DNA of 64,000 nucleotides from contig VFFE01007081.1 of assembly GCA_008921705.1 (NCBI GenBank), positions 1,727,011 through 1,791,010 on the forward strand, read 5' to 3'. The position numbers were made by a program, and so were the translations under genes. The notes under the pieces were generated by a model that was not told the origin of the DNA, did not search any database, and was given only the letters and a program-made list of their open reading frames with translations. Positions 16,016 to 60,294 of the stretch are shown piece by piece. This stretch comes from Burhinus oedicnemus. Its lineage: Eukaryota; Chordata; Aves; Charadriiformes; Burhinidae. The first letter of the stretch is position 1; every line of letters begins with the position of its first letter.

Positions 16016-18717
16016 GTGATTTCTTAGTTTCGGGTTGGTTTTTTTTAAAAAAAAGGAAACATTCTGAGATTTCCATCCATAAAACTTGTCTTTTAAACAG
16101 ATGAGTAAAACATGCTAAGCATCCTTTCCATTTATGTTACCTAAAGCACAGCACAGGGGTATGCTAATTAAGCATTCCTCAGAATACTTCAGCAAGGTAG
16201 GGGGATAAACATTATGACCACCATATAGGGGATAGGAAAACTGAGACACAATGGTTGAGCTTTTTCCAGAGGTCCATGCAGTAAGTCATTAAGTGAGCCA
16301 AAAGAAAAACTCTCCAATCCTTCTCCTTAGTGATGCAGCCAACTCAGTCACCTAAGCTATGCTATATGTGTATTTTAAATCGAATATCTTTACACTTTTA
16401 GTAAAAATGATTTGAAGACGGTTTGAGGAATGCATGAGTGTTTTGCATATTTAAGTTATGAGTTAACCAAATGGTTCCAATTTCTGCCTGAAAAAAACAT
16501 TTAGGACAGGATATACCTATAAATTGCCAGAAAATCAGAAAATGTTTTCCATTTCCACAAATGAAAGTAGGATTTGGCTCTCGGTGTTAGAATGACTACA
16601 ATTAACAGGAACAAAAAAACCTCAAAAGTATATTAAAAAAAAAAAAAAGGCAGAAAAATTACCAGTAAAGCTAAATTCAAAAGACAGAGAAAGTGGCTGT
16701 GATTTGAGAAATGTGGTCCTCGGAATGCAAAAACAGATCCTGAAATCTTTACTTTCTGGAGGAATCAATCTAAATAAGGCCTTTGTGATCAGTCCTTCCC
16801 AGAGCAAGTAGGCTATGCTTAGTGTATTGAGTGTTCTAGATTAATTCACAAGGGGTCTACCAGCCAAACTGGAGAGGTGGGAAAGCAGATCAGTTGTTTG
16901 GCACTCCTCTGCGGCTGAACTCGGCCAACAAGCTGTTCATGATGGCAGCAGATGTTCCTGCCTTTGCCTTATGCCAAAGTTGGCCGTATGGACTCAGTTC
17001 ATGGGCCATTCCTCCCAGCTGCAAATTCCAGTGCAGGCAAAAGCCTTTCAAAGTACAAAAATAGGACGCTGGGGCATCAAGACCTGGCACTCATCAGTGT
17101 TTTCAAAAAGGTGAAGTATAGGATAACAGTAATCTACAATGCAGATATCGGAACTGCTTTCTTTTCCAGTCTCTGGCCCAGTACTGTTCTCTTTTGTTTC
17201 AGTGCATAAAGACTGAGGTTTTCATGGCTGGACCACATTAAAATTTGCACTTTGCAAAGTCCATGTTTGCTTTGATGTAGGCTGTGAATGTTTGGGGACA
17301 AGGTTCCTCAAGGCCATGATCCAGCCCTGTGGAACAAATGCTAGCATGGATTTGCACAAGCAAATAATAATATAAGAGGATTTTTTATTTATACTTCTTT
17401 TATCCAGAGAAATCCTGGTTTCGCTAATAAAGGGCTTCACAAATAGCAAATTTAAGACTAAGGCCAGCTCTGGTGCAGAGGAGACTATCTCAAGAAGGAA
17501 GCAAACTTTGTCATGTGCATCAGTGAGGTGTAAGACACAGGTGCAAACTCTTTCCTTCTGGAAGCTCTGCATCCCCTCTGAACCTCTGAAAAACGCGCGC
17601 GCATTGAAGCCATCTGGTGAGCGTGCGCGCGTAGCCTGCTCCTGCCTTGGCCGGGGAGCCAGGCTGCGCCGGCTGCAGCAGGGCTCCACCCAGGGAGACA
17701 TGGCTCAGGGCATGGGGCTGGAGCCTGCGCTCCAGAGGGAACGGGGCTTCAAAAACCACAGTCTTAAGTAAAAAGATCAGAATTCCTTTTTAACTCAGGG
17801 GCTTGGCGGGGGGGGGGGCTTTGAGGTGTCTGGTTTTTTAAGAAAAAGAACCGGGTGGCACATTGCTCATCATTTTAGAAGAAACAGGTCGCTTTTTCAA
17901 TTACTCATGTAATCTTGCTGTAATAAGCACATTCATTGTTTTATTTTTAAGCATGGAAAGTCAATTAAATGGCTAGTTTTATAATGCTGATTTTTTACGT
18001 TAGAGAAAGATTTTATATTTGTTTTTGTGTGGCTTTTATCAGTGTATATGCTATTAGTAATTTGTCTATTTTGCTTTTAAAAATTCAGAAAGTATTATGC
18101 AACATTGCAGAAATTCTAATCACTTTTCACAAAACTTTTTTTCCCACATATTTTACCATGAGGCACGCTGACTAGTCCTATACAAGAAGAAGGCAGAAAG
18201 CACACATGGATGCTCTTGTAGAAGTATGATGTCAGTATTTCTGTATTTATTACTGCAAGGGCATTTTTAAATATATTGATGCTTTTCAGTTTTCATAAAT
18301 GGGAATTTTGGAGTCATTGGTTTTTATTCAAGCTAGAGAGAAACCTAAGAGAGGTTATCATGCTGAACAGGATTTCAGTGCCTTTGGAGCTCCGTTCCTG
18401 ATTTTCAAAACTCAAGCAGTCAGTGTTTAAATTGATTCTGAAAATAGGAACTGGGTTGCAAGACCATATAACTGCTTCAGAAATCTGTTGCCTTTCAACT
18501 ACACTACAACTGAGTCACAGCATCTGGTTAGAACATGTTTAAAACGTACAGTGTGGCTGGCACCTAATGGCAGAACTTAACATTTTGTTTATTTCTTAAG
18601 AGGGTACATTGCAAAACCCATCTTTTTTCTTTAAAATTGGTTAGTTATGTAAGCCTTAATTTTTCTGGATGCTTACTGACAGTTTGATGGAATCCTAAGT
18701 AAGCCTCAGGAACCAAA
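16016..18717. other. Single-copy non-coding DNA, with a small GC-rich patch
   Basis: No gene recognised. A poly-A run of 14 lies at 16635-16648. A GC-richer patch at about 17585-17760 holds an alternating CG hairpin and is followed by an 11-G run at 17808-17818. Frames of up to 159 codons on the minus strand here lack any known domain. Confidence 0.5.
17593..17632. repeat. Alternating-GC inverted repeat (potential hairpin/Z-DNA)
   Basis: ACGCGCGCGC at 17593-17602 is nearly the reverse complement of GTGCGCGCGT at 17623-17632, giving a 10-bp stem with one G-T mismatch around a 20-nt loop. Alternating CG tracts favour Z-DNA. CpG is otherwise scarce around here, so the cluster stands out. Confidence 0.6.
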
Positions 18718-19019
18718 TCCTCTGTTTTATACACCATGCTAAGAGTGATTTGATTATCCCTGTGGCTGCAAAAAAAATAGCCTGCATCTGTCCTGAATTG
18801 AAAACAGATCCGCACTGAAGAGCATTACATCAGTATTGCTGATATGCTAGAAATGAGTCAGTTGGGAAGTACATTTTCAAATAAAATATGATCGAATTAC
18901 AAGCAATTAACTTCTTCCTTGGAGTAACAGAGATATACAAGTTGTGCGTTCTGTTCTTTAAAAATGCTTCACGCAGTTAGAGAATAAGATAGGAATAATG
19001 TGCTTGAAGAGTAGACTAC
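18718..19019. repeat. Left copy of an exact 302-bp duplication
   Basis: This 302-bp segment recurs base for base at 19401-19702, including the same 8-A run. It ends in ...GTAGACTAC, immediately before the TG that opens the LTR at 19020. In the right copy the same last base is followed by ACAGGTAGC instead. A tandem duplication whose end coincides with a retroviral insertion point is best explained by unmerged alleles or contigs. Confidence 0.95.
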
Positions 19020-19380
19020 TGTCGTGGTTTGGGCCAGATTGGCCCAATCCGGTGGAACGACAGATGCTCTCTCTCTCCTGCTCCGCTCGGGAGGCAAGAG
19101 AGAGAGAGAAAAAGAGACTTAAGAGTTTAGAAGGATCTAAACTACTTTAATGAAATATTGATAATAAAATAATAAAAAGAAAAATAACGAAATATATACA
19201 AAACCGTATCAAGCTCCCAGGATGACAATCACGTCACCAGCAGGTTCTGGGGAAGTCCCAGACTGGACTCGGTGACGGACGGGAACTGGATTCCGGATCT
19301 GGATTCAGGATCGGGATCAAAGGCAGACGCAGAGACAGAGTCCTCCCAGGACGCCGGCCATTGAAGAAAGAGGGCTGACC
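19020..19380. mobile_element. Endogenous retrovirus LTR, cut by an assembly gap
   Basis: Begins TGTCGTGGTTTG, the type of terminus found on many avian ERV LTRs, at a sharp junction with flanking DNA. Just inside is a perfect inverted repeat, TTGGGCC-AGATT-GGCCCAA (19029-19047), then a CT-rich/GA-rich complementary pair (about 19067-19110), an AT-rich stretch with TAATAAAATAATAAAA, and a GC-richer 3' part. The layout resembles avian LTRs displayed in antisense, so the provirus may read on the minus strand; this is uncertain. The other end, the target-site duplication and any internal gag/pol/env sequence are hidden by the gap. Whether it is a solo LTR or a full provirus cannot be told. Confidence 0.72.
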
Positions 19381-19400
19381 NNNNNNNNNNNNNNNNNNNN
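19381..19400. other. Assembly gap (20 N)
   Basis: Twenty N, probably a placeholder of unknown true length. It joins a contig ending inside the LTR to a contig that starts 302 bp back in the flanking DNA. Open frames that run through it are meaningless. Confidence 0.99.
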
Positions 19401-19702
19401 TCCTCTGTTTTATACACCATGCTAAGAGTGATTTGATTATCCCTGTGGCTGCAAAAAAAATAGCCTGCATCTGTCCTGAATTGAAAACAGATCCGCACTG
19501 AAGAGCATTACATCAGTATTGCTGATATGCTAGAAATGAGTCAGTTGGGAAGTACATTTTCAAATAAAATATGATCGAATTACAAGCAATTAACTTCTTC
19601 CTTGGAGTAACAGAGATATACAAGTTGTGCGTTCTGTTCTTTAAAAATGCTTCACGCAGTTAGAGAATAAGATAGGAATAATGTGCTTGAAGAGTAGACT
19701 AC
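19401..19702. repeat. Right copy of the exact 302-bp duplication (LTR-free allele)
   Basis: Identical to 18718-19019, but it continues into ACAGGTAGCAAGG and the CR1 at 19718 with no LTR. It therefore reads as the empty (pre-insertion) site of the same locus. Confidence 0.95.
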
Positions 19703-19717
19703 ACAGGTAGCAAGGAA

Positions 19718-20440
19718 ATCACAGAATCAGAGGGGTTGGAAGGGACCTCTGGAGATCATCTAGTCCAACCCCCCTGCCAGAGCAGGATCACCTAGAGCAG
19801 GTTGCACAGGATGGCATCCAGGCAGGTTTTGAATGTCTCCAGAGTCGGAGACTCCACCACCTCTCTGGGCAGCCTGTTCCAGTGCTCTGCCACCCTCAAA
19901 GGAAAGAAGTTCCTCCTCATGTCTAGATGGAACTTCCTATGTTCAAGGTTGTGCCTGTTACCTCTTGTCCTATCACTGGGCACCACTGCAAAAAAGACTG
20001 GTGCCATCCTCCCAGCACCCTCCCATCAAGTATTTGTAAGCATTGATGAGATCCCCTCTGAGTCTTCTCTTCTCCAGACTAAAAGCACCCAAGTCCCTCA
20101 GCCTTTCCTCATAAGAAAGATGTTCCAGGCCCCTAATCATCTTTGTAGCCCTCTGCTGTACCCTATCCAGCAGTTCCCTGTCCTTCTTGAACTGGGGAGC
20201 GCAGAACTGGACACAGGACTCCAGATGCGGCCTCACCAGGGCATAGTAGAGGGGGAGGATAACCTCCCGTGACCTGCTTGCCACACACCTCTTGATGCAC
20301 CCCAGGATGCCATTGGCCTTCTTGGCCACAAGGGCACATTGGTGGCTCATGGTCATCCAGTTGTCCACCAGGACTTCCAGATCCCTTTCCACAGAGCTGC
20401 TTCCAGCAGGTCAGTCCCTAACCTGTATGTGCTGCACAGC
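19718..20440 (-). mobile_element. CR1 LINE copy, 5'-truncated
   Basis: Starts with ATCACAGAATCAGAGGGGTTGG, the inverted CR1 3' terminus of a type with 'gacctctggagatcatct-agtccaaccccc', and runs through the ORF2 C-terminal region to about 'gcaggtcagtccctaacctg'. The reverse strand encodes the typical CR1 ORF2 tail in two frames (see the ORF2 remnant entry). The 3' end differs from the neighbouring 20.55 kb copy, so the two come from different subfamilies and separate insertions. Confidence 0.93.
19792..20392 (-). pseudogene. CR1 ORF2 C-terminal remnant, frameshifted
   Basis: On the minus strand, 20392-19973 encodes a CR1 ORF2 tail segment with the hallmark stretches '[11 protein letters not shown]', '[11 protein letters not shown]', 'ALVRPHLE', '[16 protein letters not shown]' and '[11 protein letters not shown]'. 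The continuation, 20007-19792, lies in another frame and carries '[20 protein letters not shown]' and '[13 protein letters not shown]' before a stop at the expected ORF2 end. The change of frame falls at about 19973-20007, so at least one indel has broken it. The endonuclease and reverse-transcriptase domains are absent through 5' truncation. It is not a host gene. Confidence 0.9.
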
Positions 20441-20552
20441 ATCAGGGACTGTTGGCTTCAGCCTCACCCACAAAAGTGGTAGGTGTTCAGTCAGTTAAGT
20501 GGTCATCACGGCTTCCTTCTTCAGCTGAAAATACGGTCTAACATCTCTAGAA
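20441..20552. other. Spacer between two CR1 copies
   Basis: About 110 bp separates the 5'-truncated end of one CR1 from the 3' terminus of the next. Nothing else is recognisable, although the first part could be diverged CR1. Confidence 0.5.
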
Positions 20553-21345
20553 CAGAATCGCAGAATCATAGAATCGTTTAGGTTGGAAAAGACCTTTAAG
20601 ATCATCTAGTCCAACCATTGACCCTACATTACCAGATCTGCAACTAAACCATGTCTCTAAGCACCACATCTACACAGCTTTTAAACACATCTAGGGATGG
20701 TGACTCAACCACCTCCCTGGGCAGCCTGTCCCAGTGTTTGATAACTCTTTCAGTGAAAAATTTTTTCCTCATGTCCAGCCTAAACCTCCCCTGGCACAAC
20801 TTGAACCCGTTTCCTGTTGTCCTACCGCTAGTTACTTGAGAGAAGAGACCAGCGCCCATCTCACTACAACCTCCTTTCAGGTAGTTGTAGAGAGCAATAA
20901 GGTCTCCCCTCAGCCTCCTCTTCTCCAAACTAAGCAATCCTAATTCCTTCAGATGCTCCTCATCAGACATGTTCTCCAGACCCCTCACCAGCTTTGTTGC
21001 CCTTCTCTGGACACGCTCCAGCACCTCAATGGCCCTCCTATACTGTGGCGCCCAAAACTGAACACAGTACTCAAGCTGCGGCCTCACCAGCGCTGAGTAC
21101 AGGGGCACGATCACTTCCCTACTCCTGCTGGCCACACTATTCTTGATACAGGCCAAGATGCCGTTGGCCTTCTTGGCTACCTGGGCGCACTGTTGGCTCA
21201 TGTTTAGCCGGCTGTCCACCAGAACCCCCAGATCCTTTTCTGCCAGGCGGCTTTCCAGCCACTCCTCCCCAAGCCTGTAGCGTTGCCTGGGGTTATGTGA
21301 CTGAAGTGCAGGACCCAGCAGTCATGCTTGTGCCTCGTTAGCCTT
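20553..21345 (-). mobile_element. CR1 LINE copy, relatively well preserved
   Basis: Opens with the inverted terminus CAGAATCGCAGAATCATAG followed by 'aatcgtttaggttggaaaag', then the standard 3' UTR and ORF2 C-terminal region, and fades out after 'aagtgcaggacccagcag'. The ORF2 tail is open on the minus strand for more than 190 codons, so this is the best preserved LINE in the window. It is 5'-truncated before the reverse-transcriptase core. Confidence 0.95.
20644..21219 (-). pseudogene. CR1 ORF2 C-terminal fragment, frame intact
   Basis: A 191-codon minus-strand frame matching the C-terminal part of CR1 ORF2 (the LINE polyprotein with an N-terminal endonuclease and a reverse transcriptase). 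Visible family stretches, in order, are '[19 protein letters not shown]', '[20 protein letters not shown]', '[10 protein letters not shown]', '[15 protein letters not shown]', '[20 protein letters not shown]', '[20 protein letters not shown]' and '[13 protein letters not shown]', ending at the normal stop. The frame stays open further upstream of the listed methionine ([10 protein letters not shown] precedes it), so that methionine is internal and not a real start. The catalytic RT and endonuclease domains are missing, so it cannot mobilise itself. Confidence 0.93.
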
Positions 21346-60274: not shown

Positions 60275-60294
60275 NNNNNNNNNNNNNNNNNNNN
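60275..60294. other. Assembly gap (20 N) inside the CpG island
   Basis: Twenty N in the most GC-rich part, a common sequencing drop-out. The missing DNA is immediately upstream of the candidate start codon and could contain 5' UTR or coding sequence. The real length is unknown, so frames on the two sides cannot be connected. A 320-codon minus-strand frame that appears to span it is unsupported. Confidence 0.99.

Follow-up and report, generated by a model that had tools for sequence, protein, structure and literature searches.

The window, by which we mean the whole 64,000-nucleotide stretch of Burhinus oedicnemus DNA that was analyzed, contains a block of 302 bp that occurs twice, on either side of a partial LTR and a scaffold gap. 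When the sequences were compared, positions 18718-19019 and 19401-19702 were identical at 302 of 302 bases, with no extension of the match on either side, and a rough estimate of 4e-168 excludes a chance origin of this identity. The left copy ends at 19019; TGTCGTGG... begins at 19020 and runs for 361 bp to 19380. It is followed by 20 N at 19381-19400, and the second block copy starts directly after these, at 19401. Both copies end in ...GTAGACTAC, from which the left contig passes into TGTCGTGG and the right contig into ACAGGTAGC; past 19702, the right-hand copy thus runs on into ACAGGTAGC... and then into a CR1-like element. The features are as follows.

18718..19019, plus strand: left-flank block on the left contig (very probably the occupied allele); 302/302 identical to 19401-19702, with two places in the assembly
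19015..19019, plus strand: predicted target-site duplication ACTAC, in a single copy left of the LTR; 5-bp length taken from 21/32 other copies
19020..19380, minus strand: part of an ERV LTR (U5, R, and the end of U3; 361 of ~728 bp), identified from family copies; the start of U3 is lost in the gap
19381..19400, no strand: 20-N scaffold gap; judging from gap sizes elsewhere, its length is probably nominal and not measured
19401..19702, plus strand: identical 302 bp opening the right contig (very probably the empty allele), a probable false duplicate according to its identity and the assembly search
19698..19707, plus strand: putative empty site as it was before integration, ACTAC^ACAGG, with no interruption; one match to ACTACACAGGTAGCAAGGAAATCACAG in the assembly

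To place these features in the genome, we searched the 1.17-Gb assembly (1,169,565,922 bases in 1,504 contigs, with the window lying within G000:C890). Two places matched the 302-bp block, both of them in the window, and the 600 bp to the left of the block (18118-18717) were found once, with no second copy. The empty-site pattern ACTACACAGGTAGCAAGGAAATCACAG, a 27-base exact pattern that spans the junction, had one match in the assembly, located in the right contig. DNA searches of this type skip very common words, which makes the evidence for uniqueness strong rather than absolute. Besides the pair itself, a search for further LTR or block copies within the window returned only short, chance-level matches, and the opening 400 bp of the right contig gave no match to a full LTR copy. 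An earlier reading made from the sequence only had described the block as present twice with full identity, and its second copy as continuing without an LTR; both descriptions were confirmed. The block's extent of 302 bp needs rewording: the copies are exact, but the left edge marks where the right contig begins, so the figure is a minimum for the shared stretch and not a natural boundary. The right edge of the block, in contrast, is a real LTR boundary.

The right flank was also characterized. CR1-like sequence occupies window positions 19720-21321 on the minus strand, beginning ~17 bp right of the integration site, and ATTCTRTG, described as the CR1 3'-end motif (PMC6523648), is found on the minus strand at 19720-19727. 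A 225-aa frame (20644-21321, minus strand) matched bird proteins, many of them named reverse transcriptase; among the 120 listed of 8,000 scored matches, the best was from Mycteria americana, with 86% identity over 93% of the query. Pfam returned no match for two right-flank ORFs at E 0.001, and Rfam returned none at the gathering threshold.

An LTR family with 5-bp target-site duplications

Using the 361-bp LTR piece as the query against the bird's own genome, we obtained 3,599 first-look candidates and scored the best 40, with the window's own copy included. All 40 of these best candidates aligned over query positions 1-361 at 98-100%; the window copy accordingly has at least 39 close copies besides itself, and possibly far more, since the best 40 of 3,599 were scored. 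We then fetched 32 of those 39 copies in two sets; the 12 of the first set carried 60 bp of flanking sequence on the left, and the 20 of the second carried 400 bp. Homology began at the same TG in 32/32, and the left flanks were unrelated to each other and to that of the window (the best ungapped match of the last 40 bases was 20/40, and BLAST gave no match at 1e-5). These results bear out the claim, made from the window's letters, that the block's right edge coincides with the TG start of an LTR. Complete copies are ~728 bp long and end in ...CCAGGACA, so that TG...CA-type ends are found across the family; the window copy shows the TG edge only, and the remainder of the ~728 bp is missing.

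Three copies (L026, L042, and L044) run into shared sequence and carry an identical purine-rich tract directly before U3 on the element strand, and they appear to be provirus ends. In one family copy, TATAAAAG and a later ATTAAA are present on the minus strand. Because the polypurine tract lies next to U3 in three copies and TATAAAAG is accompanied by the later ATTAAA in one, we place the element on the minus strand, and the window piece therefore comprises U5, R, and the end of U3. The plus strand of this piece carries two AATAAA, counter to the minus-strand orientation; we take them as chance occurrences within an A/T-rich stretch. Hence, the earlier description of the block as followed by an LTR was right about a genuine LTR edge, and is refined here in that the piece is the U5-side 361 of ~728 bp of a minus-strand element. 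A search of viral contigs with the LTR pattern gave 0 matches.

Target-site duplications were next evaluated in the fetched copies. As many as 21 of the 32 other copies had an exact 5-bp duplication (6/12 in the first set and 15/20 in the second set). One further copy, L035, showed a 5-bp duplication with one mismatch, L027 had a 4-bp repeat instead of the 5-bp duplication, and L048 was a complete solo LTR with no target-site duplication. The other 8 of the 32 were not assessable for duplication, comprising the 3 provirus ends, 1 truncated copy (L034, which lacks the LTR's last bases), and 4 interrupted copies (L029, L033, L041, and L049). A 5-bp target-site duplication is a criterion for ERVL/ERV3 (PMC6523648); by that criterion alone, the LTR family is of the ERVL/ERV3 type. 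At the window locus, ACTAC is predicted to be the duplicated target sequence. An exact-pattern search of the assembly for the right-hand junction of the occupied allele (LTR end, ACTAC, and ACAGG) gave no match. Thus, of the duplication of 4 to 6 bp ending in CTAC that had been anticipated, the length is supported by the family at 5 bp, whereas ACTAC itself is a prediction, its right-hand counterpart having had no exact match in the assembly.

Over the 361 bp, the mean pairwise difference among 13 copies (the window copy and 12 others) was 0.9% (range, 0 to 1.7%), a figure biased low because 12 of the 13 compared copies had been picked as those most similar to the window copy. The window copy had one private state among the 13. 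Such low divergence would fit a young family and does not date the window insertion.

Gaps and contig breaks

A scaffold stretch of 264 kb contained two N-gaps, each of exactly 20 N. Of these, the gap in question has duplicated flanks, whereas the other (60275-60294) showed none at E 1e-5; its flanks are GC-rich and, at E up to 10, gave weak matches only, the best being 73% over 85 columns. This second 20-N gap lies in a CpG-island-like, GC-rich stretch, and it probably has a different cause, GC dropout. Exact 20-N gaps were also found inside the LTR in L033 (540-559) and L041 (769-788, on the element-oriented strand), and in L049 the scaffold ends within the LTR. Altogether, in 4 of 33 viewed copies (the window copy, L033, L041, and L049), the LTR is cut by a 20-N gap or by the end of the scaffold. 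In L026, L029, and L042, longer stretches of N extend to the limit of the fetched sequence and are not necessarily assembly gaps. This LTR family is hard to assemble across, and breaks in the LTR recur in the assembly. Two further observations concern interrupted copies: a short pol-like piece appears beside L033 in a mechanical ORF list, and L029 departs from the family sequence after 385 bp (from about 445) with no gap there, as a truncation, a rearrangement, or a misjoin.

We further asked where a left flank is repeated beyond an LTR break. Across the 20 copies fetched with 400-bp flanks, the left flank was repeated to the right of the LTR piece in 0/20 within the fetched stretch. In L041, the left flank was not repeated to the right of its 20-N gap in the fetched stretch; L033 was fetched with only 60 bp of left flank. 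Since L041 shows no duplicated flank in that stretch, an LTR break alone does not produce the pattern, although this is one example and gives no rate.

The gap size was exactly 20 in 4/4 fully seen gaps (the two in the scaffold and those in L033 and L041), which suggests that 20 N is a placeholder for small, unknown, or negative gap lengths. A floor of 20 N for negative gaps is presumably a Celera/MaSuRCA convention. In the literature searched, no source was found to say that assemblers use 20 N as a minimum when a gap is negative; ALLPATHS-LG is described as giving negative gap sizes where contigs overlap.

Probable occupied and empty alleles at a single site

Because homology begins at the same TG edge in 32/32 copies, the point at which the left contig enters the LTR is a true integration edge. 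With this edge on one contig, an uninterrupted site on the next, and an identical shared side, we consider it very likely that the block pair represents the occupied and empty alleles of one site, placed side by side by the scaffolder. The identity of the block, the LTR edge, the family with its 5-bp duplications, and the finding of no second copy of the flank or of the empty site are direct observations. Heterozygosity and the assembler's behavior are what we infer from them. The assignment of the left contig to the occupied haplotype and of the right contig to the empty one, first proposed in the sequence-only reading, thereby gained support from the true LTR edge and from the empty junction and the flank each being found once; heterozygosity would follow from that assignment.

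The likely course of events can be outlined. A young ERV would have inserted at ACTAC^ACAGG on one chromosome, on the minus strand, and the sequenced bird would carry both states, as the assembly suggests. Reads from the occupied chromosome would carry the left contig across the flank and on into the LTR; there, given many near-identical repeat copies, the assembler may have stopped after 361 bp. Reads from the empty chromosome would build the right contig, whose first base lies 302 bp ahead of the site, and the scaffolder would then line up these overlapping contigs one after the other, with a placeholder gap of 20 N between them. On the occupied chromosome, at least ~728 bp plus the 5-bp duplication would be present, half of which the assembly shows. 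The view that the extra 302 bp and the gap exist on no real chromosome therefore calls for a correction: the second block is a probable false duplicate, but the occupied chromosome should hold at least ~728 bp of LTR and 5 bp there.

Between two haplotypes, differences could be expected in the shared block, yet it contains zero SNPs; at 0.5% heterozygosity, zero would be expected ~22% of the time. If the site were Z-linked and the bird female, heterozygosity would be impossible. We also considered whether the empty allele could have arisen by precise excision of the LTR, and rejected this on general knowledge, as recombination leaves a solo LTR.

Other origins of the pair were weighed against this reading. 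One is a genuine tandem duplication, 302 bp long or more, with the LTR in one copy only. The chicken K locus offers a precedent: of its two tandem copies, one harbors ALVE21 and the other retains the empty site (PMC7325683). Moreover, the right contig begins inside the shared block, so the gap would hide the left limit and the true duplication could be longer. However, this explanation needs a second event, with the breakpoint and all nonidentical parts falling in one gap, and it has to accommodate both the complete identity of the copies and the fact that no second copy of the 600 bp on the left was found in the assembly. Because no further duplicate sequence was found, we hold a tandem duplication to be quite improbable.

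Alternatively, the two states could come from two birds or a mixed library, one occupied and the other empty, in which case the insertion would be polymorphic in the species and not heterozygous in one bird. From the assembly, one diploid and a pool look the same; nonetheless, most assemblies are made from one individual, and by that general knowledge we regard this origin with comparable skepticism. Even less credible is a chimeric left contig, in which the flank was misjoined to an LTR read that belongs elsewhere in the genome, and no chromosome carries the insertion at this site. An LTR with many near-identical copies is a usual source of misjoins, and the LTR part does end at the gap, but a chance misjoin would have to hit the very first base of the LTR, the integration edge in 32/32 other copies; we therefore give this explanation almost no weight.

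Two allelic states of one site, then, account best for the locus, which combines an ordinary artifact of a known class with an equally ordinary underlying polymorphism. It illustrates cleanly, at base resolution, how an assembly can convert a heterozygous retroelement insertion into a gap and a false duplication. The 302-bp repeat should not be taken for a segmental duplication, and the empty site ACTAC^ACAGG is a ready presence/absence marker for a young ERV family. With somewhat better than even confidence, we further propose that an ERV family, whose LTR copies may number in the thousands, continues to insert in this bird or stopped doing so only very recently; that the locus is one of many segregating insertions recorded in collapsed assemblies as gaps and falsely duplicated flanks; and that flank duplications at contig ends could be mined for polymorphic insertions from one assembly.

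Comparison with known systems

In a bird-of-paradise, LTR elements are reported among the main causes of assembly gaps (PMC7757076), and segregating LTR insertions are described as common in crows (PMC7341801). The present locus resembles the crow ERV/LTR insertions and chicken ALVE (PMC7341801, PMC7325683) in involving a young LTR element with presence and absence states, in systems in which solo LTRs occur; it differs from them in that the window insertion is known from one assembly.

As an assembly error, the locus resembles the heterotype false duplication of the Vertebrate Genomes Project, for which a gap between the copies is named among the marks (PMC9516828). In both, a gap separates copies on one scaffold, and such errors are known in bird assemblies, LTR copies included (PMC9516828): in the earlier zebra finch assembly, 18,757 LTR copies (21%) were false (PMC9516828). 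Duplicated overlapping contigs (DOC) are a further parallel; in the chicken assembly tested, 5,698 of 5,947 were misassembled (Kelley and Salzberg 2010, PMC2864568). In DOC, adjoining contig ends that overlap where haplotypes differ are set in tandem and feign a duplication (PMC2864568). The window shows what both classes describe, with near-identical copies at facing contig ends, a 20-N gap between them on one scaffold, and the LTR piece on the left contig. What sets it apart from DOC is that the haplotype difference in the window is one LTR insertion beside an identical overlap.
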